Positions 15,346-61,185 of a stretch of 64,000 nt of DNA are shown here, in pieces. Under the pieces are notes generated by a model. That model was given only the letters and a program-made list of their open reading frames with translations. It had not been told where the DNA came from and did not search any database. The stretch comes from Haliotis asinina (taxonomy: Eukaryota; Mollusca; Gastropoda; Lepetellida; Haliotidae), in NCBI RefSeq assembly GCF_037392515.1, contig NC_090288.1, positions 57,955,673 through 58,019,672 on the forward strand, written 5' to 3'. Positions within the stretch are counted from its first letter, which is position 1; each line of letters begins with the position of its first letter. The translations under genes and the position numbers were made by a program.

Positions 15346-15348
15346 GAC

Positions 15349-24179: not shown

Positions 24180-24870
24180 GTTATTGATTAAAAGAAACTT
24201 AAACTTTCAATTTAATGCAGATAGTTTCTGCGTCAAGTGAAAATATTGGCTCCGACTTCTGACTCACGTGAGCAGTAGATAACACGTATTTTAAAAGCTC
24301 TGAAAATACGGCTAAATGTGTATCGGATTCTCAGTCCCCTGTACCAGATGCCAATTATAACATTATAACCTTGGCAACTTCTGGTAATACCTTTGTGGTC
24401 ACAATATGAATTTATCACACTCTCACTAATTAATTCCTACTGAAACTATCAAAATTATTCCATTGTGCACACGCAGAAACTAGTCCAATCTAATCCGTGT
24501 CAGAATTGAATGATTTGTACTTTTAATGATACTGATTTTCCTTGTGGGCACTCTTGACAGTTTGAAGACATTTTCTGTTCAAATATTGCATCCACAGATT
24601 ATGACTAATTGCCTTTTATCAAACAAGCAGTTAATTTGCATGCTTCTTTTTAATCTAGTTTTACAAAAAAATCCACCTCAGCTCCAAATCAGGCCACGTA
24701 ACTTGCTTCAATCACTGTAACAGTACGTGTCCTTTGTTGCAATTCGTTACATCACAAGCTAACTTTGCGTTGACTAAAGTCTGTTATTATTTACTCGCTT
24801 GTATGAATAAAACCCTATGAAACCACAGGCGTGTCTGTCGAATTGATTCTGTTTGTCATCAAAGGTCAAA
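24180..24870. other. Upstream region of copy 1
   Basis: No exon recognised. A promoter or signal-peptide exon for copy 1 would be expected here, but I cannot point to one. Confidence 0.35.
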
Positions 24871-24873
24871 TAG

Positions 24874-25267
24874 CAGTGGAAATGACATACGTTGACGAAT
24901 GGGTGCTCTACATGACAGCAGTGGAAATGACATACGTTGACGAATGGGTGCTCTACATGACGAATGGGTGCTCTACATAATAGCAGTGGAAATGTCGTAC
25001 GTTGACGAATGGGTGCTCTACATGACAGCAGTGGAAATGACATACGTTGACGAATGGGTGCTCTACATGACAGCAGAGGAAATGACGTACGTTGACGAAT
25101 GGGTGCTCTACATGACAGCAGTGGAAATGACATACGTTGACGAATGGGTGCTCTACATGACGAATGGGTGCTCTACATAATAGCAGTGGAAATGTCGTAC
25201 GTTGACGAATGGGTGCTCTACATGACAGCAGTGGAAATGACATACGTTGACGAATGGGTGCTCTACA
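24874..25267. repeat. 45-bp/63-bp minisatellite upstream of copy 1
   Basis: The basic unit of 45 bp contains TACGTTGACGAATGGGTGCT and CTACATGACAGCAGTGGAA. Two longer 63-bp variants (near 24930-25000 and 25140-25200) carry a second GACGAATGGGTGCTCTACAT. This gives a short higher-order pattern in which a 207-bp block is repeated. Confidence 0.92.
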
Positions 25268-26594: not shown

Positions 26595-26800
26595 TTTTTA
26601 TATCGTATGAGGCGACCAACGGGATCGGGTGGTCAGGCCCGCTGACTTGGTTGACACATGTCATCGTGTCCCAGTTGTGTAGATCGATGCTCATGTTGTT
26701 GATCACTAGATTGTCTGACCCAGGCTCGATTATTTACAAATCGCCACCATATAGCTGGAATATTGCTGAGTGCGGCGTAAAACTGAACTCACTCATTCAG
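26595..26800 (+). mobile_element. SINE-B copy, 3' part
   Basis: It contains GAGGCGACCAACGGGATCGG, GTGGTCAGG, ACTTGGTTGACACATGTCAT, TAGATCGATGCTCATGTTG, ATATAGCTGGAATATTGCTG and GCGGCGTAAAACTGAACTC, and ends in ACTCATTCA. Confidence 0.85.
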
Positions 26801-39100: not shown

Positions 39101-42100
39101 GAGACGAGCGGGATTAGGTATTCAGGCTTGTGATTTGATATTTGTAAGAAGAGACGAGCGGGATTAGGTATTCCGGCTTGTGATTTGATATTTGTAAGAA
39201 GAGACGAGCGGGATTAGGTATTCAGGCTTGTGATTTGATATTTGTAAGAAGAGACGAGCGGGATTAGGTATTCAGGCTTGTGATTTGATATTTGTAAGAA
39301 GAGACGAGCGGGATTAGGTATTCCGGCTTGTGATTTGATATTTGTAAGAAGAGACGAGCGGGATTAGGTATTCCGGCTTGTGATTTGATATTTGTAAGAA
39401 GAGACGAGCGGGATTAGGTATTCCGGCTTGTGATTTGATATTTGTAAGAAGAGACGAGCGGGATTAGGTATTCCGGCTTGTGATTTGATATTTGTAAGAA
39501 GAGACGAGCGGGATTAGGTATTCAGGCTTGTGATTTGATATTTGTAAGAAGAGACGAGCGGGATTAGGTATTCAGGCTTGTGATTTGATATTTGTAAGAA
39601 GAGACGAGCGGGATTAGGTATTCAGGCTTGTGATTTGATATTTGTAAGAAGAGGAGACGAGCGGGATTAGGTATTCAGGCTTGTGATTTGATATTTGTAA
39701 GAAGAGACGAGCGGGATTAGGTATTCCGGCTTGTGATTTGATATTTGTAAGAAGAGACGAGCGGGATTAGGTATTCAGGCTTGTGATTTGATATTTGTAA
39801 GAAGAGGAGACGAGCGGGATTAGGTATTCAGGCTTGTGATTTGATATTTGTAAGAAGAGACGAGCGGGATTAGGTATTCCGGCTTGTGATTTGATATTTG
39901 TAAGAAGAGACGAGCGGGATTAGGTATTCCGGCTTGTGATTTGATATTTGTAAGAAGAGACGAGCGGGATTAGGTATTCCGGCTTGTGATTTGATATTTG
40001 TAAGAAGAGACGAGCGGGATTAGGTATTCAGGCTTGTGATTTGATATTTGTAAGAAGAGACGAGCGGGATTAGGTATTCAGGCTTGTGATTTGATATTTG
40101 TAAGAAGAGACGAGCGGGATTAGGTATTCCGGCTTGTGATTTGATATTTGTAAGAAGAGACGAGTGGGATTAGGTATTCCGGCTTGTGATTTGATATTTG
40201 TAAGAAGAGACGAGCGGGATTAGGTATTCCGGCTTGTGATTTGATATTTGTAAGAAGAGACGAGCGGGATCAGGTATTCCGGCTTGTGATTTGATATTTG
40301 TAAGAAGAGACGAGCGGGATCAGGTATTCAGGCTTGTGATTTGATATTTGTAAGAAGAGACGAGCGGGATTAGGTATTCCGGCTTGTGATTTGATATTTG
40401 TAAGAAGAGACGAGCGGGATTAGGTATTCAGGCTTGTGATTTGATATTTGTAAGAAGAGACGAGCGGGATTAGGTATTCCGGCTTGTGATTTGATATTTG
40501 TAAGAAGAGACGAGCGGGATTAGGTATTCAGGCTTGTGATTTGATATTTGTAAGAAGAGACGAGCGGGATTAGGTATTCAGGCTTGTGATTTGATATTTG
40601 TAAGAAGAGACGAGCGGGATTAGGTATTCCGGCTTGTGATTTGATATTTGTAAGAAGAGACGAGCGGGATTAGGTATTCAGGCTTGTGATTTGATATTTG
40701 TAAGAAGAGACGAGCGGGATTAGGTATTCCGGCTTGTGATTTGATATTTGTCAGCGTATCCTTTTAGCAGAGATCGATGTTCTTCATATCAGTCACTGGA
40801 TTGTTTGGTCCAAACTCGATTGCATAGAGACTGCCGTGATTCATCTGAAATATTGCTGAGTTGCGCGAAACAACAGACACGGGCCCGTTCTTTCATTCTT
40901 TAACATAGTACTGAAGGCGTTTAGCTGTGGTTTCAGTCAAGGGAACAACTTGGATCTGCTTTATACTCAACACAAAAAGAAAGTATACCTTTCATAATTG
41001 GCATTTTCATTGATGTCTTCTGTTTAGTGTATGTTTCATTTTTTTCAAAACAACACTACAAAGCACATACGACGAGTAAAACATGCATCGGTTTGGTCCG
41101 GAGTAGGAAAAATACGAGAAAGCAACGAAAACATGTCAAATACCATACCCGGCATGTTCAGTGAACAGTTTGAGGGAACAAATGTGCACAAGTGAAAATA
41201 AAATAGCCTTACAAATACGGGAATTATGCTAAAAGGTGTTATGGGTCTTTCATAGAAATCTAACGTTAAGAAGTGCTATTGTTTGGGTTTTTTTTCAAAA
41301 TCAACGGAAAAGGGCTGTTGGACATAAATCTGACACTAAAAATGAGCTATTGGTTTTTTGTTTTCGAAATTAACGTAAAACGGCTGTTGGACAGAAATCT
41401 GACACTAAAAAACCAGTGCCATTGTGATTTGTTTCAAAGTCAACGCGAAAATGCTGTTGGATATAAATCCGACACTGAAAATGCGTTATTGTTTATTTTT
41501 GAAAGAGCTGTTAGATACGAATCTGATATTAAAAAGGTGCCATGTCTTGTTTTCAAAATCGACGTGAAAGGACTGTTGGACAGGAATCTGAAACTAGTGG
41601 AGGTGCCATGATTGTTTCATGAATCTACGTAAAGAGGCTGCTAGTATATTGTTAGCATGCATCTCTGTGCAGATGGACAGATTTCATCGTTGCAAAAGCA
41701 GCCATCGTGCCAGTGGTACATGTTCGAACTTTCCAGGGAGTATTTGTTTGATGGCACGTCGTTTTGACTGTCATTACGTAAACTGAACGCTGATTATTTC
41801 GTTGAATATATCGAATAAGAAAATCTAGAGTATACTGTATACATTGGCATTTCCAGTGCAGTAGATCACAGTCAATGGTTAATAGTTCTTTTTGTCTTCA
41901 CCAGCTAATGCTTGTCGCAAGAGGCGACTAACTGTATCGAGTGGTCAGGCTCGCTGATTTCGTTGACACATGTTTCCGGTTGTGTAGATCGATGATCACT
42001 GGATTGCTTAGACCAGACTCGATTATTTACAGACCGTTGCCATATGACTGTAATATTGTTGAGTGCGACGTTAAACAACAAAAGAAAGAATAGTTTCGTT

Positions 42101-42956
42101 GAGTTTTGTTACAAGCACGGACATAACTTTCTTACCAAGGTACAGCCTTCATGTATTCAAGAAATATATATAGTTTACTGAAAGAATTTGACCTGTTATT
42201 GCAACAACTGATTACCAGATAAGTGATGGAGTACTAGATAATGTGTCATTGTTCAAAAATATTACACAGTCATGGAACAGGCATAACGAAACGACAAGTA
42301 TTACTGTTTCATGGAGCAGTACAATTGATGAGTACAACTGAAATATATGGTTATTTTTAACCATTTATCAGTTTATACATGTAGTGCGGCTCGGTTAATC
42401 AGGGCCCCTTTCCACAAAACAAGAGCAGGCCTACGACCGTCGTACGTCTATGTTAAAGTATTATGGAAATATACGATAACCCTAGCACAAATGTACAGTG
42501 GAACACTCTCAGTTGTTAGAATTATACACACGCATACGCATGCACACATAGACTATCAGCAAAGTAGACACACATGTATGGTACAAAACATAAGACGTTT
42601 TACTCGTAAAAGCAATATAGATTTCATAGTTTCTTTTCTGACCAGCAATATATAAATTGTACAGTAAACTCACCAGGTCCAGGAATGGATCCTATAGGTC
42701 CAGTGCACTGAATACCTCTGTTCAAGTTGTATTTCAACATTTCCATATCCACCAGAGCGGATGGATCCGACTGGAAGGTGTCCTGGTAGACATAACAAAT
42801 CAAATACAGGACACTAAAGGCTATGGCTTCACACGCTGCCTGCCGCATACACGCATGGGTGCAGTCCGCTAAACTACCAACTTTCATCACAGTTATGAAG
42901 TTAGTAGGAAGGGTGTTAATCTGTACCAGGTGAAACGTCATTTCAGCTGTTGCCAT
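35941..42956 (-). CDS. PAN/Apple-like plus C-type lectin domain protein, copy 2
   Basis: Three exons: 42956-42674, 38438-38247 and 36149-35941 (283, 192 and 209 nt), 227 residues, all GT/AG and phase 1 as in copy 1. Exon 1 is PAN/Apple-like (LADCTHACMRQAACEAIAF, LICYVYQD, IQCTGP). Exons 2-3 are the lectin fold: CYKRLYSTNRSGKDTCIQEG, GSDLLTVDSQEKQDFFGPL, GEWAYWEEGTTRPMPFIDW, SPGQPN, GQDCMALD and FFCEYHL. It shares the unusual QPN motif and lacks WND. Upstream of its ATG the codon matching AGA in copy 1 is TGA, so if the true start lay further 5' this copy would be truncated. Intron 1 (4.2 kb) holds a 50-bp array and SINEs. The 99-bp array begins about 700 bp upstream of the ATG. A recognition function is inferred. 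Confidence 0.78.
36160..36570. other. Intron 2 of copy 2, no exon seen
   Basis: Non-coding. The first 40 bases closely match 60304-60345 upstream of copy 3 exon 3, showing that the duplication included intron sequence. Confidence 0.5.
36575..36700 (-). mobile_element. SINE-A copy (tRNA-derived), in intron 2 of copy 2
   Basis: Reverse orientation: GCAATATTCAAGCAATATCA, CCATGTGGGGAATCGAACTC (box B) and TTTAACCACTGGGCTACCAC (head). Confidence 0.85.
36705..37900. other. Intron 2 of copy 2, no exon seen
   Basis: No coding exon recognised. A short TTTGAATTTCACAGG-type segment near 37840 (minus strand) resembles the degenerate array at 41248-41645. Confidence 0.4.
37905..38155 (+). mobile_element. 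SINE-B copy, near full length
   Basis: GTGAAGTTCCGGGGTAGAAT, CAGCAACCCATGCATGCC, CTATGCTTGTCGTAAGAGGC, GGGATCGGGTGGTGAGGC, GACTTGGTTGACACATGTC, CACTGGATTGTCTGGCCCAG and TTTCTGAGTGCGGCGTAAAA, ending in ACTCACTCATTCA. It lies in intron 2 of copy 2, antisense to the gene. Confidence 0.9.
38247..38438 (-). CDS. Copy 2, exon 2 (N-terminal half of the lectin domain)
   Basis: Acceptor TTGTTTCTAG to 38439, donor GTAATT from 38246. Translation FRICPMSNGYSYELTFNVC, YKRLYSTNRSGKDTCIQEGG. 192 nt, as in copy 1. Confidence 0.85.
38560..38600 (+). mobile_element. SINE-B, 5' piece split by the 50-bp array
   Basis: TCGTCAGCAACACATGCTTTCTATAAGAG-like sequence matches the SINE-B head (CAGCAACCCATGCTTGCC), then runs straight into the 50-bp array. 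The 3' half of the SINE resumes at 40752. Confidence 0.75.
38601..40751 (+). repeat. 50-bp tandem array, about 43 copies, derived from a SINE core
   Basis: The unit is GAGACGAGCGGGATTAGGTA, TTC(A/C)GGCTTGTGATTTGA, TATTTGTAAGAA. Two copies carry a 3-bp GAG insertion (near 39652 and 39805); the rest are exactly 50 bp. The main polymorphism is A or C at one position (TTCAGG/TTCCGG). The unit matches the SINE-B core (CGTAAGAGGCGACTAACGGG, ATCGGGTGGTCAGGCTCG), and SINE flanks continue on both sides, so the array arose inside a SINE. It sits in intron 1 of lectin copy 2. Confidence 0.95.
40752..40890 (+). mobile_element. SINE-B, 3' piece after the 50-bp array
   Basis: CAGAGATCGATGTTCTTCAT, CACTGGATTGTTTGGTCC, AACTCGATTGCATAGAGACT and GAAATATTGCTGAGTTGCGC match the 3' half of SINE-B in order. 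Confidence 0.8.
41248..41645. repeat. Degenerate tandem repeat of about 63-72 bp, 6 copies
   Basis: Copies share GGGCTGTTGGACATAAATCT, GACACTAAAAA and TTTTCAAAATCAACGG-type blocks with many substitutions and indels. It gives a repetitive open frame (RNLTLK-like motifs) without other coding support. Confidence 0.7.
41895..42090 (+). mobile_element. SINE-B copy, 3' two thirds
   Basis: AATGCTTGTCGCAAGAGGCG, GAGTGGTCAGGCTCGCTGA, GTGTAGATCGATGATCACTG, ACCAGACTCGATTATTTACA and ATTGTTGAGTGCGACGTTAA. Confidence 0.85.
42095..42640. other. Intron 1 of copy 2, no exon seen
   Basis: Short (CACA)-rich stretch near 42530. Nothing else recognised. Confidence 0.4.
42674..42956 (-). CDS. Copy 2, exon 1 (PAN/Apple-like domain)
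   Basis: ATG at 42956 (AACATGG), donor GTGAGT from 42673. It opens with MATAEMTFHLVQINTLPTNF and ends in GSIPGPG. 283 nt, three more than copy 1, with the same exit phase. Confidence 0.8.
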
Positions 42957-42959
42957 GTT

Positions 42960-43672
42960 TAACGTGAAGTGTCAGTTCTGTATACAGCGAATCAAATATA
43001 AGATTATCCTTCCTTAAGCATCGTCATGATGAGATCGATGTTCCGCAACTGCCCCGTGAAGCACCCAGTCAACTGATTATTTGATTTATGAACACCGTAG
43101 CACAAGCGACTCACGGAGCGACTTCTAAACACTGCATTGATTTCAGATCTATATTGTCAAGAACAGCTTTACTTTAGCGGGGCGATATTCTAAAACCACC
43201 GATCCGCGTGTCGAGGATAGATAAACAAATATTTTGGTAGATTTGCCATCTCTTGAAGGCAATCACTCCACGTGTGCTTCAGACTCAATGCATCAGTCTT
43301 CATGTACAAAATGTTATGGACACCATTGTATGTCGAGATGTAGTCAATAAAGTGTTTTAGGAGCTCTGTAAGTTAATATTCTGTTTGATCTGTAGTAAGT
43401 GGGATAAAATATCATTTCTTAGATTTGTATACAATTCCGTTTTACAATGACGGTGCAGTTACAGAGGATAGAGGGCCTGTAAGTAGGCAGCCAGACCAAG
43501 GTTTAGAGCTTACGGTGACAAAAGAAGTGTCATATCCTTTCGAGTGGTCTCATGGTTGCCATCTGAGTCTAACTTGAGTAAGGAACCGAAAATCATTGCA
43601 CAAATAACAAAATTCCTATCTAACCGTACCCAAACTAGCAAACTGTCACGACTGTCGACAGCTGTGACAGCC
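42960..43672. other. Region between copy 2 and the 99-bp array
   Basis: Probable promoter side of copy 2. No TATA box or exon identified with confidence. Confidence 0.35.
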
Positions 43673-46600
43673 AAGCATGTGTGTACACTTGGTCCGGTTC
43701 AGTAAAGTCAGTCCGGAACCAGAAGTATGTGATGAATACCCACTTGTAACGGGTAGTTTGGTACCGGAAGTAAGCATGTGTGTACACTTGGTCCGGTCCA
43801 GTAACGTCAGTCCCAAACCAGAAGTATGTGATGAATACCCACTTGTAACGGGTAGTTTGGTACCGGAAGTAAGCATGTCTGTACACTTGGTCCGGTTCAG
43901 TAAAGTCAGTGCGGAACCAGAAGTATGTGATGAATACCCACTTGTAACGGGTAGTTTGGTACCGGAAGTAAGCATGTCTGTACACTTGGTCCGGTCCAGT
44001 AACGTCAGTCCGGAACCAGAAGTATGTGATGAATACACACTTGTAACGGGTAGTTTGGTACCGGAAGTAAGCATGTCTGTACACTTGGTCCGGTCCAGTA
44101 ACGTCAGTCCGGAACCAGAAGTATGTGATGAATACACACTTGTAACGGGTAGTTTGGTACCGGAAGTAAGCATGTGTGTACACTTGGTCCGGTCCAGTAA
44201 AGTCAGTCCGGAACCAGAAGTATGTGATGAATACCCACTTGTAACGGGTAGTTTGGTACCGGAAGAAAGCATGTCTGTACACTTGGTCCGGTCCAGTAAC
44301 GTCAGTCCGGAACCAGAAGTATGTGATGAATACACACTTGTAACGGGTAGTTTGGTACCGGAAGTAAGCATGTGTGTACACTTGGTCCGGTTCAGTAAAG
44401 TCAGTCCGGAACCAGAAGTATGTGATGAATACCCACTTGTAACGGGTAGTTTGGTACCGGAAGTAAGCATGTGTGTACACTTGGTCCGGTCCAGTAACGT
44501 CAGTCCCAAACCAGAAGTATGTGATGAATACCCACTTGTAACGGGTAGTTTGGTACCGGAAGTAAGCATGTGTGTACACTTGGTCCGGTCCAGTAACGTC
44601 AGTCCCAAACCAGAAGTATGTGATGAATACCCACTTGTAACGGGTAGATTGGTACCGGAAGTAAGCATGTGTGTACACTTGGTCCGGTCCAGTAAAGTCA
44701 GTCCGGAACCAGAAGTATGTGATGAATACCCACTTGTAACGGGTAGTTTGGTACCGGAAGTAAGCATGTCTGTACACTTGGTCCGGTTCAGTAAAGTCAG
44801 TGTAGAACCAGAAGTATGTGATGAATACCCACTTGTAACGGGTAGTTTGGTACCGGAAGTAAGCATGTGTGTACACTTGGTCCGGTCCAGTAAAGTCAGT
44901 GCGGAACCAGAAGTATGTGATGAATACCCACTTGTAACGGGTAGTTTGGTACCGGAAGTAAGCATGTGTGTACACTTGGTCCGGTTCAGTAAAGTCAGTC
45001 CGGAACCAGAAGTATGTGATGAATACCCACTTGTAACGGGTAGTTTGGTACCGGAAGTAAGCATGTCTGTACACTTGGTCCGGTCCAGTAACGTCAGTCC
45101 GGAACCAGAAGTATGTGATGAATACACACTTGTAACGGGTAGTTTGGTACCGGAAGTAAGCATGTGTGTACACTTGGTCCGGTTCAGTAAAGTCAGTCCG
45201 GAACCAGAAGTATGTGATGAATACCCACTTGTAACGGGTAGTTTGGTACCGGAAGTAAGCATGTGTGTACACTTGGTCCGGTCCAGTAACGTCAGTCCCA
45301 AACCAGAAGTATGTGATGAATACCCACTTGTAACGGGTAGTTTGGTACCGGAAGTAAGCATGTGTGTACACTTGGTCCGGTCCAGTAAAGTCAGTGCGGA
45401 ACCAGAAGTATGTGATGAATACACACTTGTAACGGGTAGATTGGTACCGGAAGTAAGCATGTGTGTACACTTGGTCCGGTCCAGTAAAGTCAGTGCGGAA
45501 CCAGAAGTATGTGATGAATACCCACTTGTAACGGGTAGTTTGGTACCGGAAGTAAGCATGTCTGTACACTTGGTCCGGTTCAGTAAAGTCAGTGTAGAAC
45601 CAGAAGTATGTGATGAATACCCACTTGTAACGGGTAGTTTGGTACCGGAAGTAAGCATGTGTGTACACTTGGTCCGGTCCAGTAAAGTCAGTGCGGAACC
45701 AGAAGTATGTGATGAATACCCACTTGTAACGGGTAGTTTGGTACCGGAAGTAAGCATGTGTGTACACTTGGTCCGGTTCAGTAAAGTCAGTCCGGAACCA
45801 GAAGTATGTGATGAATACCCACTTGTAACGGGTAGTTTGGTACCGGAAGTAAGCATGTGTGTACACTTGGTCCGGTTCAGTAAAGTCAGTCCGGAACCAG
45901 AAGTATGTGATGAATACACACTTGTAACGGGTAGTTTGGTACCGGAAGTAAGCATGTGTGTACACTTGGTCCGGTTCAGTAAAGTCAGTCCGGAACCAGA
46001 AGTATGTGATGAATACACACTTGTAACGGGTAGTTTGGTACCGGAAGTAAGCATGTGTGTACACTTGGTCCGGTTCAGTAAAGTCAGTCCGGAACCAGAA
46101 GTATGTGATGAATACCCACTTGTAACGGGTAGTTTGGTACTGGAAGTAAGCATGTGTGTACACTTGGTCCGGTCCAGTAAAGTCAGTCCGGAACCAGAAG
46201 TATGTGATGAATACCCACTTGTAACGGGTAGTTTGGTACCGGAAGTAAGCATGTGTGTACACTTGGTCCGGTCCAGTAAAGTCAGTGCGGAACCAGAAGT
46301 ATGTGATGAATACCCACTTGTAACGGGTAGTTTGGTACCGGAAGTAAGCATGTGTGTACACTTGGTCCGGTCCAGTAAAGTCAGTGCGGAACCAGAAGTA
46401 TGTGATGAATACTCACTTGTAACGGGTAGTTTGGTACCGGAAGTAAGCATGTGTGTACACTTGGTCCGGTCCAGTAAAGTCAGTGTGGAACCAGAAGTAT
46501 GTGATGAATACCCACTTGTAACGGGTAGTTTGGTACCGGAAGTAAGCATGTGTGTACACTTGGTCCGGTCCAGTAAAGTCAGTCCGGAACCAGAAGTATG

Positions 46601-49600
46601 TGATGAATACCCACTTGTAACGGGTAGTTTGGTACCGGAAGTAAGCATGTGTGTACACTTGGTCCGGTTCAGTAAAGTCAGTGCGGAACCAGAAGTATGT
46701 GATGAATACCCACTTGTAACGGGTAGTTTGGTACCGGAAGTAAGCATGTGTGTACACTTGGTCCGGTTCAGTAAAGTCAGTCCGGAACCAGAAGTATGTG
46801 ATGAATACCCACTTGTAACGGGTAGTTTGGTACCGGAAGTAAGCATGTGTGTACACTTGGTCCAGTCCAGTAAAGTCAGTGCGGAACCAGAAGTATGTGA
46901 TGAATACTCACTTGTAACGGGTAGTTTGGTACCGGAAGTAAGCATGTGTGTACACTTGGTCCGGTCCAGTAAAGTCAGTGCGGAACCAGAAGTATGTGAT
47001 GAATACCCACTTGTAACGGGTAGTTTGGTACCGGAAGTAAGCATGTCTGTACACTTGGTCCGGTTCAGTAAAGTCAGTGTAGAACCAGAAGTATGTGATG
47101 AATACCCACTTGTAACGGGTAGTTTGGTACCGGAAGTAAGCATGTGTGTACACTTGGTCCGGTCCAGTAAAGTCAGTGCGGAACCAGAAGTATGTGATGA
47201 ATACCCACTTGTAACGGGTAGTTTGGTACCGGAAGTAAGCATGTGTGTACACTTGGTCCGGTTCAGTAAAGTCAGTCCGGAACCAGAAGTATGTGATGAA
47301 TACCCACTTGTAACGGGTAGTTTGGTACCGGAAGTAAGCATGTGTGTACACTTGGTCCGGTTCAGTAAAGTCAGTCCGGAACCAGAAGTATGTGATGAAT
47401 ACCCACTTGTAACGGGTAGTTTGGTACCGGAAGTAAGCATGTGTGTACACTTGGTCCGGTTCAGTAAAGTCAGTCCGGAACCAGAAGTATGTGATGAATA
47501 CCCACTTGTAACGGGTAGTTTGGTACCGGAAGTAAGCATGTCTGTACACTTGGTCCGGTCCAGTAAAGTCAGTCCGGAACCAGAAGTATGTGATGAATAC
47601 CCACTTGTAACGGGTAGTTTGGTACCGGAAGTAAGCATGTGTGTACACTTGGTCCGGTTCAGTAAAGTCAGTCCGGAACCAGAAGTATGTGATGAATACA
47701 CACTTGTAACGGGTAGTTTGGTACCGGAAGTAAGCATGTGTGTACACTTGGTCCGGTTCAGTAAAGTCAGTCCGGAACCAGAAGTATGTGATGAATACCC
47801 ACTTGTAACGGGTAGTTTGGTACCGGAAGTAAGCATGTGTGTACACTTGGTCCGGTTCAGTAAAGTCAGTCCGGAACCAGAAGTATGTGATGAATACCCA
47901 CTTGTAACGGGTAGTTTGGTACCGGAAGTAAGCATGTCTGTACACTTGGTCCGGTCCAGTAACGTCAGTCCGGAACCAGAAGTATGTGATGAATACACAC
48001 TTGTAACGGGTAGTTTGGTACCGGAAGTAAGCATGTGTGTACACTTGGTCCGGTTCAGTAAAGTCAGTCCGGAACCAGAAGTATGTGATGAATACCCACT
48101 TGTAACGGGTAGTTTGGTACCGGAAGTAAGCATGTGTGTACACTTGGTCCGGTCCAGTAACGTCAGTCCCAAACCAGAAGTATGTGATGAATACCCACTT
48201 GTAACGGGTAGTTTGGTACCGGAAGTAAGCATGTGTGTACACTTGGTCCGGTCCAGTAAAGTCAGTGCGGAACCAGAAGTATGTGATGAATACCCACTTG
48301 TAACGGGTAGATTGGTACCGGAAGTAAGCATGTGTGTACACTTGGTCCGATCCAGTAAAGTCAGTGCGGAACCAGAAGTATGTGATGAATACCCACTTGT
48401 AACGGGTAGTTTGGTACCGGAAGTAAGCATGTCTGTACACTTGGTCCGGTTCAGTAAAGTCAGTGTAGAACCAGAAGTATGTGATGAATACCCACTTGTA
48501 ACGGGTAGTTTGGTACCGGAAGTAAGCATGTGTGTACACTTGGTCCGGTCCAGTAAAGTCAGTCCGGAACCAGAAGTATGTGATGAATACCCACTTGTAA
48601 CGGGTAGTTTGGTACCGGAAGTAAGCATGTGTGTACACTTGGTCCGGTTCAGTAAAGTCAGTCCGGAACCAGAAGTATGTGATGAATACCCACTTGTAAC
48701 GGGTAGTTTGGTACCGGAAGTAAGCATGTGTGTACACTTGGTCCGGTTCAGTAAAGTCAGTCCGGAACCAGAAGTATGTGATGAATACACACTTGTAACG
48801 GGTAGTTTGGTACCGGAAGTAAGCATGTGTGTACACTTGGTCCGGTTCAGTAAAGTCAGTCCGGAACCAGAAGTATGTGATGAATACACACTTGTAACGG
48901 GTAGTTTGGTACCGGAAGTAAGCATGTGTGTACACTTGGTCCGGTTCAGTAAAGTCAGTCCGGAACCAGAAGTATGTGATGAATACCCACTTGTAACGGG
49001 TAGTTTGGTACTGGAAGTAAGCATGTGTGTACACTTGGTCCGGTCCAGTAAAGTCAGTCCGGAACCAGAAGTATGTGATGAATACCCACTTGTAACGGGT
49101 AGTTTGGTACCGGAAGTAAGCATGTGTGTACACTTGGTCCGGTCCAGTAAAGTCAGTGCGGAACCAGAAGTATGTGATGAATACCCACTTGTAACGGGTA
49201 GTTTGGTACCGGAAGTAAGCATGTGTGTACACTTGGTCCGGTCCAGTAAAGTCAGTGCGGAACCAGAAGTATGTGATGAATACTCACTTGTAACGGGTAG
49301 TTTGGTACCGGAAGTAAGCATGTGTGTACACTTGGTCCGGTCCAGTAAAGTCAGTGTGGAACCAGAAGTATGTGATGAATACCCACTTGTAACGGGTAGT
49401 TTGGTACCGGAAGTAAGCATGTGTGTACACTTGGTCCGGTCCAGTAAAGTCAGTCCGGAACCAGAAGTATGTGATGAATACCCACTTGTAACGGGTAGTT
49501 TGGTACCGGAAGTAAGCATGTGTGTACACTTGGTCCGGTTCAGTAAAGTCAGTGCGGAACCAGAAGTATGTGATGAATACCCACTTGTAACGGGTAGTTT

Positions 49601-52600
49601 GGTACCGGAAGTAAGCATGTGTGTACACTTGGTCCGGTTCAGTAAAGTCAGTCCGGAACCAGAAGTATGTGATGAATACCCACTTGTAACGGGTAGTTTG
49701 GTACCGGAAGTAAGCATGTGTGTACACTTGGTCCAGTCCAGTAAAGTCAGTGCGGAACCAGAAGTATGTGATGAATACTCACTTGTAACGGGTAGTTTGG
49801 TACCGGAAGTAAGCATGTGTGTACACTTGGTCCGGTCCAGTAAAGTCAGTGCGGAACCAGAAGTATGTGATGAATACCCACTTGTAACGGGTAGTTTGGT
49901 ACCGGAAGTAAGCATGTCTGTACACTTGGTCCGGTTCAGTAAAGTCAGTGTAGAACCAGAAGTATGTGATGAATACCCACTTGTAACGGGTAGTTTGGTA
50001 CCGGAAGTAAGCATGTGTGTACACTTGGTCCGGTCCAGTAAAGTCAGTGCGGAACCAGAAGTATGTGATGAATACCCACTTGTAACGGGTAGTTTGGTAC
50101 CGGAAGTAAGCATGTGTGTACACTTGGTCCGGTTCAGTAAAGTCAGTCCGGAACCAGAAGTATGTGATGAATACCCACTTGTAACGGGTAGTTTGGTACC
50201 GGAAGTAAGCATGTGTGTACACTTGGTCCGGTTCAGTAAAGTCAGTCCGGAACCAGAAGTATGTGATGAATACCCACTTGTAACGGGTAGTTTGGTACCG
50301 GAAGTAAGCATGTGTGTACACTTGGTCCGGTTCAGTAAAGTCAGTGCGGAACCAGAAGTATGTGATGAATACCCACTTGTAACGGGTAGTTTGGTACCGG
50401 AAGTAAGCATGTGTGTACACTTGGTCCGGTCCAGTAAAGTCAGTGCGGAACCAGAAGTATGTGATGAATACCCACTTGTAACGGGTAGTTTGGTACCGGA
50501 AGTAAGCATGTCTGTACACTTGGTCCGGTCCAGTAAAGTCAGTCCGGAACCAGAAGTATGTGATGAATACCCACTTGTAACGGGTAGTTTGGTACCGGAA
50601 GGAAGCATGTGTGTACACTTGGTCCGGTTCAGTAAAGTCAGTGCGGAACCAGAAGTATGTGATGAATACCCACTTGTAACGGGTAGTTTGGTACCGGAAG
50701 TAAGCATGTGTGTACACTTGGTCCGGTCCAGTAAAGTCAGTGCGGAACCAGAAGTATGTGATGAATACCCACTTGTAACGGGTAGTTTGGTACCGGAAGT
50801 AAGCATGTGTGTACACTTGGTCCGGTTCAGTAAAGTCAGTCCGGAACCAGAAGTATGTGATGAATACCCACTTGTAACGGGTAGTTTGGTACCGGAAGTA
50901 AGCATGTCTGTACACTTGGTCCGGTTCAGTAAAGTCAGTGCGGAACCAGAAGTATGTGATGAATACCCACTTGTAACGGGTAGTTTGGTACCGGAAGTAA
51001 GCATGTGTGTACACTTGGTCCGGTCCAGTAAAGTCAGTCCGGAACCAGAAGTATGTGATGAATACTCACTTGTAACGGGTAGTTTGGTACCGGAAGTAAG
51101 CATGTGTGTACACTTGGTCCGGTCCAGTAAAGTCAGTGTGGAACCAGAAGTATGTGATGAATACCCACTTGTAACGGGTAGTTTGGTACCGGAAGTAAGC
51201 ATGTGTGTACACTTGGTCCGGTCCAGTAAAGTCAGTGCGGAACCAGAAGTATGTGATGAATACCCACTTGTAACGGGTAGTTTGGTACCGGAAGTAAGCA
51301 TGTGTGTACACTTGGTCCGGTTCAGTAAAGTCAGTCCGGAACCAGAAGTATGTGATGAATACCCACTTGTAACGGGTAGTTTGGTACCGGAAGTAAGCAT
51401 GTGTGTACACTTGGTCCGGTCCAGTAAAGTCAGTGCGGAACCAGAAGTATGTGATGAATACTCACTTGTAACGGGTAGTTTGGTACTGGAAGTAAGCATG
51501 TGTGTACACTTGGTCCGGTCCAGTAAAGTCAGTGCGGAACCAGAAGTATGTGATGAATACCCACTTGTAACGGGTAGTTTGGTACCGGAAGTAAGCATGT
51601 CTGTACACTTGGTCCGGTTCAGTAAAGTCAGTGTAGAACCAGAAGTATGTGATGAATACCCACTTGTAGCGGGTAGTTTGGTACCGGAAGTAAGCATGTG
51701 TGTACACTTGGTCCGGTCCAGTAAAGTCAGTGCGGAACCAGAAGTATGTGATGAATACCCACTTGTAACGGGTAGTTTGGTACCGGAAGTAAGCATGTGT
51801 GTACACTTGGTCCGGTTCATTAAAGTCAATCCGGAAGCAGAAGTATGTGATGAATACCCACTTGTAACGGGTAGTTTGGTACCGGAAGTAAGCATGTGTG
51901 TACACTTGGTCCGGTTCAGTAAAGTCAGTCCGGAACCAGAAGTATGTGATGAATACCCACTTGTAACGGGTAGTTTGGTACCGGAAGTAAGCATGTCTGT
52001 ACACTTGGTCCGGTTCAGTAAAGTCAGTGTAGAACCAGAAGTATGTGATGAATACCCACTTGTAACGGGTAGTTTGGTACCGGAAGTAAGCATGTGTGTA
52101 CACTTGGTCCGGTCCAGTAAAGTCAGTGCGGAACCAGAAGTATGTGATGAATACCCACTTGTAACGGGTAGTTTGGTACCGGAAGTAAGCATGTCTGTAC
52201 ACTTGGTCCGGTCCAGTAAAGTCAGTGCGGAACCAGAAGTATGTGATGAATACCCACTTGTAACGGGTAGTTTGGTACCGGAAGTAAGCATGTGTGTACA
52301 CTTGGTCCGGTCCAGTAAAGTCAGTGCGGAACCAGAAGTATGTGATGAATACCCACTTGTAACGGGTAGTTTGGTACCGGAAGTAAGCATGTCTGTACAC
52401 TTGGTCCGGTCCAGTAAAGTCAGTGCGGAACCAGAAGTATGTGATGAATACCCACTTGTAACGGGTAGTTTGGTACCGGAAGTAAGCATGTGTGTACACT
52501 TGGTCCGGTTCAGTAAAGTCAGTGCGGAACCAGAAGTATGTGATGAATACCCACTTGTAACGGGTAGTTTGGTACCGGAAGTAAGCATGTGTGTACACTT

Positions 52601-55600
52601 GGTCCGGTCCAGTAAAGTCAGTGCGGAACCAGAAGTATGTGATGAATACCCACTTGTAACGGGTAGTTTGGTCCCGGAAGTAAGCATGTGTGTACACTTG
52701 GTCCGGTTCAGTAAAGTCAGTCCGGAACCAGAAGTATGTGATGAATACCCACTTGTAACGGGTAGTTTGGTACCGGAAGTAAGCATGTCTGTACACTTGG
52801 TCCGGTTCAGTAAAGTCAGTGCGGAACCAGAAGTATGTGATGAATACCCACTTGTAACGGGTAGTTTGGTACCGGAAGTAAGCATGTGTGTACACTTGGT
52901 CCGGTCCAGTAAAGTCAGTGCGGAACCAGAAGTATGTGATGAATACTCACTTGTAACGGGTAGTTTGGTACCGGAAGTAAGCATGTGTGTACACTTGGTC
53001 CGGTCCAGTAAAGTCAGTGTGGAACCAGAAGTATGTGATGAATACCCACTTGTAACGGGTAGTTTGGTACCGGAAGTAAGCATGTGTGTACACTTGGTCC
53101 GGTCCAGTAAAGTCAGTGCGGAACCAGAAGTATGTGATGAATACCCACTTGTAACGGGTAGTTTGGTACCGGAAGTAAGCATGTGTGTACACTTGGTCCG
53201 GTTCAGTAAAGTCAGTCCGGAACCAGAAGTATGTGATGAATACCCACTTGTAACGGGTAGTTTGGTACCGGAAGTAAGCATGTGTGTACACTTGGTCCGG
53301 TTCAGTAAAGTCAGTCCGGAACCAGAAGTATGTGATGAATACCCACTTGTAACGGGTAGTTTGGTACCGGAAGTAAGCATGTGTGTACACTTGGTCCAGT
53401 CCAGTAAAGTCAGTGCGGAACCAGAAGTATGTGATGAATACTCACTTGTAACGGGTAGTTTGGTACCGGAAGTAAGCATGTGTGTACACTTGGTCCGGTC
53501 CAGTAAAGTCAGTGCGGAACCAGAAGTATGTGATGAATACCCACTTGTAACGGGTAGTTTGGTACCGGAAGTAAGCATGTCTGTACACTTGGTCCGGTTC
53601 AGTAAAGTCAGTGTAGAACCAGAAGTATGTGATGAATACCCACTTGTAACGGGTAGTTTGGTACCGGAAGTAAGCATGTCTGTACACTTGGTCCGGTCCA
53701 GTAAAGTCAGTGCGGAACCAGAAGTATGTGATGAATACCCACTTGTAACGGGTAGTTTGGTACCGGAAGTAAGCATGTGTGTACACTTGGTCCGGTTCAG
53801 TAAAGTCAGTCCGGAACCAGAAGTATGTGATGAATACCCACTTGTAACGGGTAGTTTGGTACCGGAAGTAAGCATGTCTGTACACTTGGTCCGGTTCAGT
53901 AAAGTCAGTCCGGAACCAGAAGTATGTGATGAATACCCACTTGTAACGGGTAGTTTGGTACCGGAAGTAAGCATGTGTGTACACTTGGTCCGGTTCAGTA
54001 AAGTCAGTGCGGAACCAGAAGTATGTGATGAATACCCACTTGTAACGGGTAGTTTGGTACCGGAAGTAAGCATGTGTGTACACTTGGTCCGGTCCAGTAA
54101 AGTCAGTGCGGAACCAGAAGTATGTGATGAATACCCACTTGTAACGGGTAGTTTGGTACCGGAAGTAAGCATGTCTGTACACTTGGTCCGGTCCAGTAAA
54201 GTCAGTGCGGAACCAGAAGTATGTGATGAATACCCACTTGTAACGGGTAGTTTGGTACCGGAAGTAAGCATGTGTGTACACTTGGTCCGGTTCAGTAAAG
54301 TCAGTGCGGAACCAGAAGTATGTGATGAATACCCACTTGTAACGGGTAGTTTGGTACCGGAAGTAAGCATGTGTGTACACTTGGTCCGGTCCAGTAAAGT
54401 CAGTGCGGAACCAGAAGTATGTGATGAATACCCACTTGTAACGGGTAGTTTGGTACCGGAAGTAAGCATGTGTGTACACTTGGTCCGGTTCAGTAAAGTC
54501 AGTCCGGAACCAGAAGTATGTGATGAATACCCACTTGTAACGGGTAGTTTGGTACCGGAAGTAAGCATGTCTGTACACTTGGTCCGGTTCAGTAAAGTCA
54601 GTGCGGAACCAGAAGTATGTGATGAATACCCACTTGTAACGGGTAGTTTGGTACCGGAAGTAAGCATGTGTGTACACTTGGTCCGGTCCAGTAAAGTCAG
54701 TCCGGAACCAGAAGTATGTGATGAATACTCACTTGTAACGGGTAGTTTGGTACCGGAAGTAAGCATGTGTGTACACTTGGTCCGGTCCAGTAAAGTCAGT
54801 GTGGAACCAGAAGTATGTGATGAATACCCACTTGTAACGGGTAGTTTGGTACCGGAAGTAAGCATGTGTGTACACTTGGTCCGGTCCAGTAAAGTCAGTG
54901 CGGAACCAGAAGTATGTGATGAATACCCACTTGTAACGGGTAGTTTGGTACCGGAAGTAAGCATGTGTGTACACTTGGTCCGGTTCAGTAAAGTCAGTCC
55001 GGAACCAGAAGTATGTGATGAATACCCACTTGTAACGGGTAGTTTGGTACCGGAAGTAAGCATGTGTGTACACTTGGTCCGGTTCAGTAAAGTCAGTCCG
55101 GAACCAGAAGTATGTGATGAATACCCACTTGTAACGGGTAGTTTGGTACCGGAAGTAAGCATGTGTGTACACTTGGTCCGGTCCAGTAAAGTCAGTGCGG
55201 AACCAGAAGTATGTGATGAATACTCACTTGTAACGGGTAGTTTGGTACCGGAAGTAAGCATGTGTGTACACTTGGTCCGGTCCAGTAAAGTCAGTGCGGA
55301 ACCAGAAGTATGTGATGAATACCCACTTGTAACGGGTAGTTTGGTACCGGAAGTAAGCATGTGTGTACACTTGGTCCGGTTCAGTAAAGTCAGTGTAGAA
55401 CCAGAAGTATGTGATGAATACCCACTTGTAACGGGTAGTTTGGTACCGGAAGTAAGCATGTGTGTACACTTGGTCCGGTCCAGTAAAGTCAGTGCGGAAC
55501 CAGAAGTATGTGATGAATACCCACTTGTAACGGGTAGTTTGGTACCGGAAGTAAGCATGTGTGTACACTTGGTCCGGTTCAGTAAAGTCAGTCCGGAACC

Positions 55601-56846
55601 AGAAGTATGTGATGAATACCCACTTGTAACGGGTAGTTTGGTACCGGAAGTAAGCATGTGTGTACACTTGGTCCGGTTCAGTAAAGTCAGTCCGGAACCA
55701 GAAGTATGTGATGAATACCCACTTGTAACGGGTAGTTTGGTACCGGAAGTAAGCATGTCTGTACACTTGGTCCGGTTCAGTAAAGTCAGTGCGGAACCAG
55801 AAGTATGTGATGAATACCCACTTGTAACGGGTAGTTTGGTACCGGAAGTAAGCATGTGTGTACACTTGGTCCGGTCCAGTAAAGTCAGTGCGGAACCAGA
55901 AGTATGTGATGAATACCCACTTGTAACGGGTAGTTTGGTACCGGAAGTAAGCATGTCTGTACACTTGGTCCGGTCCAGTAAAGTCAGTGCGGAACCAGAA
56001 GTATGTGATGAATACCCACTTGTAACGGGTAGTTTGGTACCGGAAGTAAGCATGTGTGTACACTTGGTCCGGTTCAGTAAAGTCAGTGCGGAACCAGAAG
56101 TATGTGATGAATACCCACTTGTAACGGGTAGTTTGGTACCGGAAGTAAGCATGTGTGTACACTTGGTCCGGTTCAGTAAAGTCAGTCCGGAACCAGAAGT
56201 ATGTGATGAATACCCACTTGTAACGGGTAGTTTGGTACCGGAAGTAAGCATGTGTGTACACTTGGTCCGGTCCAGTAAAGTCAGTGCGGAACCAGAAGTA
56301 TGTGATGAATACTCACTTGTAACGGGTAGTTTGGTACCGGAAGTAAGCATGTGTGTACACTTGGTCCGGTCCAGTAAAGTCAGTGCGGAACCAGAAGTTT
56401 GTGATGAATACCCACTTGTAACGGGTAGTTTGGTACCGGAAGTAAGCATGTCTGTACACTTGGTCCGGTCCAGTAAAGTCAGTGCGGAACCAGAAGTATG
56501 TGATGAATACCCACTTGTAACGGGTAGTTTGGTACCGGAAGTAAGCATGTGTGTACACTTGGTCCGGTCCAGTAAAGTCAGTCCGGAACCAGAAGTATGT
56601 GATGAATACCCACTTGTAACGGGTAGTTTGGTACCGGAAGTAAGCATGTGTGTACACTTGGTCCGGTTCAGTAAAGTCAGTGCGGAACCAGAAGTATGTG
56701 ATGAATACCCACTTGTAACGGGTAGTTTGGTACCGGAAGTAAGCATGTGTGTACACTTGGTCCGGTCCAGTAACGTCAGTCCGGAACCAGAAGTATGTGA
56801 TGAATACACACTTGTAACGGGTAGTTTGGTACCGGAAGTAAGCATG
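43673..56846. repeat. 99-bp satellite-like array, 133 units
   Basis: From AAGCATG at 43673 to the same word at 56840 is 13167 bp, exactly 133 x 99. There is no net indel across the array. On the plus strand each unit encodes 33 residues (VSMCVHLVRSSKVSAEPEVC, DEYPLVTGSLVPE). One minus frame (MLTSGTKLPVTSGYSSHTSG, SALTLLDRTKCTH) is also open throughout. A second minus frame is broken only where a unit carries TACTCA. Variation is limited to a few positions (TGT/TCT, TCC/TTC, AAA/AAC, GCG/CCG/GTG/GTA, CCA/ACA/TCA). Nearly every unit contains ACCGGAAGT. I see no splice sites, initiator context or domain that makes it a gene. A repetitive coding exon cannot be excluded. Confidence 0.95.
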
Positions 56847-56849
56847 GGT

Positions 56850-59100
56850 CTTTCTCGCATATCACAAGTTGGCGCCCGCAGAGGAGGTCGAGAACCAGCT
56901 TAGTGCTGGAAGTAGCGCCTCCGAGACATACAGGCTATATTAGTTTATGTATGTCATATCATGCAGCTTTTCATTCTCCGTTTCACTCTTTTGTGGATTA
57001 CCCAAGTAAAAATATTTTAACGAAGATAGAAGGCACAAGTAAAACACACTATTACATTGAAAAAATCCCTTTTCACATTTATAAGAAATCTATGCCAAAA
57101 GCAGAGTCGATTGTACTATTTTGAATGCACTAAACCAGATATTGGTGTCAGCAGTACTACAGCTGTATAATGTTGTTTGTAACAAATCAGGTCTGAACTG
57201 GACAATCCAATGATTATCACCATGTTCCCAAGAGGTAACGTATCCTGTCCCACAGGTGACACCGCCATAAAGATATGTTGAGTCTAGTGATTTGTTCACC
57301 TGAAATAATTCGGGAAGGTATGGTATAAGTAAAAATAGAGAATTTCATTTTTTGTCACCGATGCATCAAAGTATAAATGCTGTGACATCTTATAATAAAT
57401 ACTTGAAGGAAATAGGTCCTTTCTCAGAAACTGTAATTGATTGCTTGTTTTAAATTAGGGATTATTATTAAAATCATGAGTAATATTGTTGTAGCACGTG
57501 TCTTAAGTTGTGAATATTTTTTTAGTCCATGTTTAAAAAAATGTCATCGATATTGCAATGTTGCAAGATTTTGTGTTGATAATCGAATTCTGTGTTTGTA
57601 TCTTAATAGCGTTGCTATATGGCAACGTTAACTTGTGAACCACTCATTTATATGAGAGTGTGGTTAAAAAACGCACGTGTTTAACAGACTTTTCATGAGT
57701 GTTTTGTAGGGTTATTTCCTCCCGTATCAAGTAGACGCGTAGCCATGTGACTGCAATACTGCAGTTTTATTTGGGTGTTGATGCATGTGAACCAAGAATA
57801 TACATGTAAATGTACAATTTAACCGAAGAAACCGTGTTAATTTCTCCAGACATCAGGATAAACTTTTAATAAATTAACGTTTTATTCCATACTATGCACA
57901 CGAAAAGCGTGGACATAAAGACAGGCCACTTAAAGCCATTATATTACGTACTGTAATCGGTCGACCGATAACTACAATGTCAGTCAAGGGACAAAGCTTC
58001 TTTCTGTCCTCTTGGAAAGATTTTATTGACTGGGATTCTAGATGTTGAGGAATGAGGACAATGTTTCTGGATGTACAACGTCTTTATTCTGTATAGCCGA
58101 TCTTTTGAAATGGATTTTAATGTCACATTCTTGGCAACGACAGTGAATCTATAACAAAACATCGCCATACAAACGATAACCTGAAAGAATTATTTTGAAT
58201 TTACATTCATATTGATTTGCTACATATTGTCTCGATTTTGTAAGAAATGAGATTTTCTTTAACATTAGACGTAAGTGGATAGATTTAAACAGAATACTGA
58301 ATCTCGGATCAGGACTCCATTGGTTACAATCTGCGCTGTATACCAGGAGGATTGCAACAAGCACCTGTTTATGATTTATTTAGTAAGTGACGTTTTTTAC
58401 CCGGAGGGCAAGACCTTTTTGTCCTTTTTGTGAACGATCAGATATTGCATATATTTTTTTCAGTTCTCTGAAGTATGAATCGAACATTCGATAGCCTAAG
58501 GAATTCTTTATTGTTTGCGTATACCCAATTAAACCGAATAGATACAGTCAAGCCTTATCATTACATTCAACAAAAATATGATATCTATAATCTTTAATGG
58601 TTTGTATTAAAAAACCCACAAATTAAAGTAAAGCTAAAGTAATTAATTAATTTCATTTAAGTAAGTAGAAATTACGAGACTTGTAAACATTCAAAGGGAA
58701 ACAATACATACCGTGGCGTGATGTGCATCAAAATCAGAAAGCAATCAACGGAGAGTACATTATTATGAAAACAAAGTTAACAGGACCTGTCAGTCACGGA
58801 CAGAAGCTGAGAAGTGTAACAGTCAGACTGTAACAATGTAGGGAAGAAGGCAGTACCTTTATGTAGAATGGTTATTATATGTCAAATAGAAATACTTGTT
58901 TCATGAGAACGGGTAGACACAACTAGCAACAGCTTCTTTGGAAAAGAGCACGGACATAAGTCAAGTGTATAGCCCACACGAGCAAGAATGAGGGTCCTAC
59001 AGGTATTTTCAAAAATAGATAACGGGTTTTGTGCATTGAAATGTAATATGATCCTGAATCTGTATGGTTACTGCAAATAACACTGACTATATAAAACCGT
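56850..59100. other. Region right of the 99-bp array
   Basis: AT-rich. A possible SINE-B remnant (TCTGAACTGGACAATCCAAT at 57192-57211). A minus-strand hydrophobic frame near 58365 (VLVAILLVYSADCNQWS, after a CAG) resembles the end of a signal peptide but lacks a start and a fitting partner exon. Confidence 0.35.
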
Positions 59101-59189: not shown

Positions 59190-59880
59190 AAATCAGAATA
59201 TATCAGAAACTGTGTCCCGATGAGAGAATGTGTACGATTTCACCCCGCCTTTAACAAAATGTCAGTGACATCACGGCTTGAGACACCAGATATGGCATCA
59301 AAATGTACAGAGAGGAGGGCGTGTAGGGGTGCACGGGTGCGCATCCCGCTTTATACCTCCTTTTGTTCTGAAAGTTTAATCATTCACCACTGAAACTTCT
59401 CTCGTGAAAACGGGTGATAAGAACTATACAATCCCCACTCTCTAAAAAAAAACCTGTATCCGCTTATGAATGGGCTTCAGACATTGTATGTTGCGTTCTC
59501 TGTCATTCGTCGTGACGCGAGGACACGATGTAAGCACCCGACAGACATACAAAGACAAAATCTTCTTCATCTTGGGGGTTTATGCTGCCCTTGTCTCTCA
59601 AGATACTATTGCCAAAAATGGCCAAAATCACACGGTGTCTATGTCTCGAGAACATAGTGCACCCAAAGGATAATCCCCAAATCTCAACTACAAATATGGA
59701 CATGCTTCTACTTATTACATAAGATTCGCAGAAACAAGTACTCCCGAATAAATCGATAGTACAGGTACATATGGGTGACAATTTACATTCTAGAGCAGGA
59801 CGTTTCGATACAGCTTTTTGTGTCGTTTTCAAGTAATGATAGTAAAAATGGCACTCAAAGAAACTCAAATACATCGTGAG
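59190..59880. other. Stretch without recognised gene
   Basis: No exon recognised. Confidence 0.4.
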
Positions 59881-59884
59881 ATGC

Positions 59885-60302
59885 ATCATGGTGACCCAGA
59901 CTGTCTAGGGTCTTGAAGTCCCGTCCCCTGTAAACCGTGTTTGGCTGGTCGTGTGTCCACCTGATGAACGGCATGGCCTTGCAATCCAATACTCTTCTGT
60001 GCTGGGGAGCCGGTTTCCACATGTGTTCGCTTATCGTTCACTAGTACCAGAGAATATGGACATGTTGACCTGTTCTGTACCAGGCCAGTCAATGAAGGGC
60101 ATAGATCGGGTTGTCCCTTCCTCCCAGTAGACCCACTCTCCTTGAAACCACTCTCCTCGGGTCCACTATCCTTTGATCCACTCTCCTTGGATCCACTCTC
60201 CTTGGGTCCACTCTCCTTGGGTCCACTCTCATTGAATACGCTCTCTTGGGGTGCACTCTCCTTGGACCCATTCTCCCTGGGTCCGGTCTCCGCGGATAGA
60301 GG
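59885..60302 (-). pseudogene. Lectin copy 3, exon 3, broken
   Basis: After an acceptor (CATTACAG, ending 60303) the frame reads SIRGDRTQGEWVQGE as in copies 1 and 2, but stops at a TGA after ERIQ. A 15-bp repeat (60135-60290) intervenes, then GEWVYWEEGTTRSMPFIDW appears intact at 60086-60140. A second degenerate MPFI-W-HDQPN-like stretch follows near 59945-59985. The terminal Cys motifs are not recovered. The first bases upstream match intron 2 of copy 2. This is a duplicated, rearranged and non-coding lectin exon. Confidence 0.75.
60135..60290. repeat. 15-bp minisatellite inside the lectin pseudo-exon
   Basis: About ten imperfect copies of CTCTCCTTGGGTCCA (plus strand). The flanking lectin-exon copies contain CACTCTCC at the GEW codons, which is the probable seed of the expansion. 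Confidence 0.85.
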
Positions 60303-60304
60303 CT

Positions 60305-61185
60305 GTAATGGTGGAAAGCTGAATTAGCAATTTTCAGTTATGATTTGAAATAGACAGTGCCGTTCGGTCTCTCTGTTCTGATACATGGCACCTATATCAT
60401 TCTGGAAGTAGACTGCAGTTTTGTAAACGAAGTGAGAAGCGTTAGACTGATCCAAAACACAATACACCGCTAACCGGGACATTTTGATCCTTTGCCAATG
60501 TTCTCGCTTTGAATAAAATTTGTTATTTTTCAGGGTCAGGATTTGTCACATTGTCGCATGACGCGTTGATCTGAGTTAAATGAATAACGACATGAATAAA
60601 ATAGTTTATTGTTCAGAGCTTGATTTGATGAGACAATCACCACGTCCTATAACGACATACCATAGGAAACATATACCTTACGCCATAGAAGCATGGTAGA
60701 TAAATATGACACTATCCCACTACAGAAAATGGCAATAGCTCCACCCTCGATATAGTCGATAATTCATGTGATTACAGAACGTACAATATCCTAATTACTA
60801 TACTGTTAGTATGGAATTAGGCTGATAGGCAACAATGATTTTGCAATCGAATACCCATCAGTAATTGAATTGCCAGGTTAGAAGAGTGAAAAAACTGAAA
60901 CAGGTAATTTCATTGCCCTGATGTGGCAGGTTTCATCCTTAATACTGAAGACATTACTACAACAATGTTCAATTTAATTCAAATAGCTGCATCAACACCA
61001 GTATATAACAAGTATTGATATAATTCTAAAAAGACACAGTCTGAAAGAGACACTCAGGTGAAAATCTTAATATGCATATTTTCCAAAAAATGGTTAACGC
61101 AGCTGTTCTCGTCACACTGCCGATGTGTCACACTGTAATATCTCACGAACGCATTCACTGGATGGGTGGAACATAAAATTTTTAA
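60305..61185. other. Intron-like region of lectin copy 3, no exon seen
   Basis: The first 40 bases match copy 2 intron 2. The remainder is AT-rich and unremarkable. Confidence 0.4.

Follow-up and report, generated by a model that had tools for sequence, protein, structure and literature searches.

Does a tandem array that stays open on both strands for about 4,400 codons encode a giant repetitive protein, or is its openness a consequence of how the array was built? The array in question occupies 13.2 kb within a 64,000-bp stretch of the abalone Haliotis asinina (contig NC_090288.1 of assembly GCF_037392515.1, positions 57,955,673 to 58,019,672, forward strand), which is referred to here as the window and in whose numbering all coordinates are given. 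A preliminary description of the locus had left two explanations side by side, a very recent expansion and homogenisation of the array or the preservation of its frame by selection. We put the probability at roughly 90% that the array is a non-coding, selectively neutral minisatellite of satellite size, grown by unequal exchange and situated between two tandem genes of a family that combines a PAN-like domain with a C-type-lectin domain.

The array is built very regularly. Tandem Repeats Finder (TRF) reports a period of 99 bp, 133.1 copies and 0% insertions or deletions (indels), and on a fixed 99-bp grid each of the 133 units differs from the consensus by 0–5 mismatches; the exact count of 133 × 99 bp with zero net indels in the preliminary description is thus borne out for the copy number in this one assembly. 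Minisatellite units range roughly from 10 to 100 bp, and the head-to-tail arrangement expected of a minisatellite is found throughout. The edges are sharp, the adjoining 99 bp showing 72 (left) and 67 (right) mismatches to the consensus, and aligning the unit with the 400 bp that adjoin each edge did not reveal outer decayed units above the level of shuffled sequence. Nor was a second copy of the unit found in the masked window, where the best match covers 22 bp (E 0.12). The units have a mean pairwise identity of 97.5% and fall into 30 distinct types (haplotypes), which carry 22 distinct substitutions at 19 unit sites. C>T or G>A changes affect 4 of the 8 CpG bases as against 5 of the 39 other C or G bases (P = 0.03), a bias that suggests ordinary decay. 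An origin of the unit itself as an ancient dimer of ~45 + 54 bp is not claimed; the internal alignment scores 13.5 against a null mean of 9.3 (standard deviation 2.1) and was equalled in 6 of 200 randomised units, which is suggestive only. Among the titles and abstract beginnings of the matches listed for abalone minisatellites, for Haliotis satellite DNA and under wider queries, no description of this array was found.

One frame per strand is open for about 4,400 codons, as had been pointed out before. The whole array is open because the unit is open, 99 is a multiple of three and there are no indels, and the relevant comparison is therefore with other 99-mers repeated in tandem. When 5,000 random 99-mers drawn from window positions 1 to ~37,100 were tandemised, 64.6% had at least one open frame, 22.3% were open on both strands and 9.2% were open in at least three frames; for 99-mers with the unit's own dinucleotide make-up the corresponding shares were 83.8%, 24.3% and 13.3%. 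The openness of both strands is no greater than chance gives. The minus strand has a further frame, the third overall, that reads through the consensus unit; in the actual array it is interrupted by 11 stops, so stops are tolerated in that frame. The substitutions themselves were compared with 4,000 draws of 10 random transitions and 12 random transversions. Silent changes account for 5 of the 22 in the plus frame (5.4 expected) and 6 of the 22 in the minus frame (6.5 expected), half of the draws contain no stop at all (50% for the plus and 49% for the minus frame), and the changes are spread evenly over codon positions 1, 2 and 3 (6/9/7 plus, 9/6/7 minus). The 133 units are not independent witnesses, so the effective sample is 22 variants and not 133 units; the null draws used in this analysis (unit-order shuffles, block scores, random 99-mers and random substitutions) ignore descent among units. 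Within this small sample, silent and stop counts match random substitutions, as is expected of a minisatellite without coding constraint, and the excess of silent changes or avoidance of stops expected of a giant protein was found in neither open frame. The earlier doubt about coding, raised over the lack of a silent bias, is supported by the silent counts over all 22 variants, which equal the neutral expectation. The accompanying statement that every common variable site in the plus frame is a replacement holds for sites 26, 40, 8, 67 and 41 and fails for site 42, a silent site changed in 14 of 133 units, as often as site 41.

These counts bear directly on the proposal that one strand encodes a giant secreted or structural protein of ~4,400 residues, made of 33-residue repeats and kept in frame by selection. 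The proposal draws on the two long frames free of indels and has a real precedent in the abalone egg-coat protein VERL, which consists of ~22 repeats of ~150 residues and exceeds 1000 kDa (PMC3567151, excerpt). The VERL gene resembles the present locus as a long abalone tandem array with homogenised internal repeats, and differs from it in being coding, whereas the array shows no sign of coding (VERL after the same excerpt). With the silent fraction and the absence of stops both matching random substitutions, and with more than a fifth of random flank 99-mers equally open on both strands, we regard such a protein as extremely improbable, and the suggestion that the frame is being preserved was not upheld. 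The plus frame is preceded by a stop just before the array and has its first ATG inside the first unit, leaving it without a unique N-terminus unless one is spliced on; the minus frame starts at an ATG whose first base lies 14 bp outside the array. No protein relatives of 330-aa pieces of either frame were found among the 7,993 and 7,995 candidates sharing most words with them (~181–577 aa long), and no PDB entry matched a 330-aa piece of either frame at E<=1. Pfam matches of the array frames, to 13 families, were rejected: four exceed the whole-protein cut-offs (SdpA, NucA/NucB, VanY and UPF0193), none of the 13 has any single passing stretch, and they look like sums over repeats. The window holds no Rfam match at the gathering score and no tRNA, and, as is normal with animal DNA, neither 990 bp of the array nor a 32-bp core had a match in phage and viral collections.

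How the array grew can be read from the order of its units (numbered from 0). A run of 17 units is repeated exactly at a distance of 29 units, compared with a longest such run of 5 in 200 unit-order shuffles, and three large blocks reappear with lags of 29, 37 and 18 units (Table 1). Their scores are 72.7, 46.1 and 23.8, respectively, whereas 300 shuffles gave at most 22.4, a value that the lag-18 block barely exceeds. Adjacent units are identical in 10 pairs where 12.6 are expected, that is, neighbours are not extra alike. Since blocks recur and neighbours show no extra likeness, recent growth seems to have proceeded by blocks rather than by single-unit slippage, and the growth by whole units through exchange or slippage that characterises minisatellites is seen in these blocks. 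Units bearing the 33C variant (1, 3, 4, 6, 8, 9, 14, 16, 43, 45 and 132) crowd at the left end, with the last unit of all among them (P = 0.00015). The average deviation from the consensus is 2.94 in the first 17 units, compared with 1.57 in units 17–131 (P = 5e-5); both edge contrasts were chosen after the data had been seen. Old types at the edge and a renewed interior are a mark that established theory expects of unequal exchange. The recent expansion and homogenisation envisaged in the preliminary description are supported by the near-identical multi-unit blocks and the divergent types at the left end.

Table 1. Coordinates of the array, its blocks and edges, the open frames and the nearest gene features (window numbering; units counted from 0).
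Feature	Coordinates	Strand	Basis and remarks
Tandem array, 133 x 99 bp + 7 bp (AAGCATG), no indels	43673..56846		TRF and unit-by-unit comparison
First AAGCATG	43673..43679	+	Motif present again at the right end of the array, 56840-56846
Imperfect palindrome, 28 bp, 12/14 pairs	43643..43670		Palindrome scan; separated from the array by 2 bp
Right flank with hairpin-forming sequence	56846..56960		Single-strand DNA fold z -2.6; 2/200 shuffles fold as well
25-unit block (units 13-37)	44960..47434		Recurs 47831-50305 (units 42-66); lag 29, 22/25 units identical, 3 nt differences in 2,475 bp
22-unit block (units 56-77)	49217..51394		Recurs 52880-55057 (units 93-114); lag 37, 17/22 units identical, 6 nt differences
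21-unit block (units 87-107)	52286..54364		Recurs 54068-56146 (units 105-125; copies overlap); lag 18, 14/21 units identical, 7 nt differences
Open frame, 4408 aa from ATG (4411 aa stop to stop), judged fortuitous	43677..56903	+	Open reading frame list, substitution tests
Open frame, 4404 aa, judged fortuitous	43646..56860	-	Open reading frame list, substitution tests
Gene 2, first coding exon (PAN-like domain)	42674..42956	-	Start codon by analogy with gene 3; 717 bp from array
Gene 1 (upstream paralogue), last C-type-lectin exon, degenerate-looking	59870..60340	-	Expanded 15-bp repeat and in-frame stops; ~3 kb from array

The ends of the array offer a possible starting point. In the model of Haber and Louis, as described in an excerpt of PMC6947457, repeats of 5–10 bp flanking a motif seed the first duplication of a minisatellite, and the AAGCATG found at both ends here fits such seeding. 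A 92-bp stretch flanked by this 7-bp motif would have been duplicated once, by replication slippage or unequal exchange, and fork stalling at the palindrome on the left edge perhaps aided that first duplication. The palindrome score is attained by 3 of the 50,827 28-bp windows outside the array, this one included, the length of 28 bp having been picked after the palindrome was seen; the other two are two copies of one palindrome inside a 211-bp duplication. That duplication is a tandem one at 15348–15751, with a 100% match by TRF. Growth would then have proceeded mainly via block duplication, as the three lags and the divergent types at the left end indicate, and block duplication may have held each unit at exactly 99 bp while renewing the interior and the right part of the array. 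Two frames would have remained open across the array through chance and shared descent and not through protein selection, given that the unit length, 99, is divisible by three and that three of the unit's frames happened to lack stops.

Several features of this history have counterparts elsewhere. Besides the short direct repeats, minisatellites of the Haber–Louis type are alike in their later growth by slippage, conversion or unequal exchange (PMC6947457, excerpt). Minisatellites are given a length of 0.5 kb to several kb in an excerpt of PMC2820488, compared with which the array is longer. The same excerpt describes BvMSat05 of Beta vulgaris, where a palindromic sequence likewise adjoins an array and replication interference and slippage have been proposed; BvMSat05 differs in its 21-bp units, head-to-head junctions and several arrays, as against one head-to-tail array of 99-bp units here. 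Satellite DNA with higher-order repeats and concerted evolution, as portrayed in an excerpt of PMC8122249, resembles the array in that multi-unit blocks are co-amplified and units homogenised, whereas the array lies between genes, at a single locus within the window, and its differing lags give no fixed higher-order period.

A number of observations weigh against a neutral minisatellite grown in this way, or at least fit it less well. The variable sites are clustered, 11 of the 19 falling within the 24 bp of unit sites 23–46 (0-based; P = 0.015 for a window length picked after the data had been seen). The edge effect is one-sided, since the last 17 units deviate by 1.29, less than the interior, and only unit 132 represents a divergent type on the right. 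As single-stranded DNA, the palindrome is not unusually stable (fold z -0.48). Zero indels would also be mildly unlikely if indels were frequent: given 22 substitutions, the Poisson probability of no indel is 0.33, 0.11, 0.04 and 0.01 at assumed indel-to-substitution ratios of 0.05, 0.1, 0.15 and 0.2 (0.012 at the last of these). Indels do occur nearby, as a 50-bp array contains two 53-bp units (+3 shifts), and of the 9 array periods in the window, 6 are divisible by three (P = 0.04), a small oddity. The absence of indels is nevertheless mildly remarkable at most. Nine other arrays in the window were scanned, one of which is too short to measure; 7 of the 8 measurable ones are without any shift, the 50-bp array being the one that is shifted. 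Arrays with 25- and 17-bp units show no shift even though such units cannot be frame-keeping, and the array at 24872, also among the seven, is compound and poorly fitted by its 45-bp period. The 50-bp array itself (43 copies, 38595–40751) lies between the first two exons of gene 2, has its two +3 units at about 39595–39851 and, like the 99-bp array, is richer in G than in C on the plus strand.

The genes on either side belong to a tandem family on the minus strand, each member being composed of a PAN-like exon and two exons that form a C-type-lectin domain. The spliced model of gene 3 (22.2–24.2 kb) agrees at all 226 residues with an 'uncharacterized protein [Haliotis asinina]', which places the window in the donkey's-ear abalone or very near it; its six other matches (seven matches among 33 candidates) are from H. 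rubra, H. cracherodii, H. rufescens and H. asinina and are 54–84% identical. The three exons of gene 2 (35.9–43.0 kb) give a stop-free frame of 227 aa when joined, with 79% identity to an H. rufescens protein, and the gene is apparently intact. Its start codon is placed at 42956, and the array hence 717 bp upstream, by analogy with the H. asinina gene 3 model, which begins with the PAN exon. The array would then be intergenic, between gene 1 and gene 2, with an untranslated upstream exon of gene 2 being possible. The PAN exon of gene 1 (59.9–61.4 kb) was not found within the window, and the 15-bp repeat in its last exon (59870–60340) amounts to a minisatellite inside an exon. A second array, at 24869–25267 and unrelated to the 99-bp one, starts 719–722 bp upstream of the gene 3 start codon, compared with 717 bp for the 99-bp array and the paralogous gene 2. 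Over ~730 bp, the regions upstream of the two genes could not be aligned above the level of shuffles, with the stretch beside the start codon looking alike. The near-equal distances are probably a coincidence.

Against this background, three other accounts of the array can be weighed. The exact copy number may be an artefact of assembly, through collapse or false expansion; collapse of repeats is documented (PMC6868369, excerpt), and near-identical blocks as long as 2.5 kb with 3 differences are where assemblers err. Since the blocks differ by scattered single bases and recur at three different lags, and since both array edges are clean, we think an artefact unlikely. It is a good deal harder to believe that the array is the tandem-repeat core of a Helitron-like or comparable mobile element, with the left palindrome and the right hairpins as its ends. 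Molluscs are known to harbour mobile elements that have a minisatellite at their core, and both the palindrome and the structured right flank (z -2.6) would suit such ends. However, the unit has no second copy in the masked window, as noted above, and neither have the 1-kb flanks, apart from the gene 2 exon that matches its gene 3 paralogue. A search of both strands for terminal repeats linking the 1-kb flanks gave none beyond chance, direct or inverted (best 11 bp, E 0.43), and the lack of a repeat common to the flanks is therefore evidence against a mobile element with terminal repeats.

Alternatively, the array could regulate the lectin gene that begins 717 bp from it, for instance by way of the repeated 9-bp motif ACCGGAAGT, which we take to be an ETS-type site and which occurs in 127 of the 133 units. 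The position upstream of gene 2 and the second, unrelated array at a like distance from the gene 3 start codon speak for this; we nonetheless consider it very improbable, because the motif shows no protection from change (it contains 4 of the 22 distinct variants, where its share of the unit predicts 2), because it was picked after the fact among many possible motifs and because the upstream regions of the two genes are not alignable above shuffles. A more elaborate version, in which the palindrome and the 7-bp overlap of the ends act as a fork-stalling site that repeatedly copies blocks of 18–37 units, and in which ~130 ETS-type sites 0.7 kb upstream tune an immune-type lectin gene by array length, seems slightly less probable still.

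If the array is a neutral minisatellite, as we favour, it illustrates how little a very long open frame says about the presence of a gene when it lies in a tandem array. What counts as the sample size is the number of independent changes, here 22, and not 4,400 codons, with the divisibility of the unit length by three accounting for the remainder. The locus would also provide a readable case of an array growing by multi-unit blocks beside a palindrome and, if it proves polymorphic, a possible variable marker in abalone.

Elsewhere in the window, a 289-aa open reading frame with a TTG start on the plus strand (3998–4867) contains about ten copies of a 39-bp repeat, that is, of a 13-residue unit. 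About 3 kb from it, at 7754–8080, lies a fragment similar to the final part of a protein kinase domain (E 6e-4 and below the cut-off for Pfam PK_Tyr_Ser-Thr). A dispersed repeat of ~200 bp is present in both orientations in at least six places (7068–7272, 15992–16208, 19910–20177, 26603–26799, 37907–38156 and 41908–42076), and, with pairs of copies ~70–88% alike, it is probably a short interspersed nuclear element (SINE) or another short mobile element.

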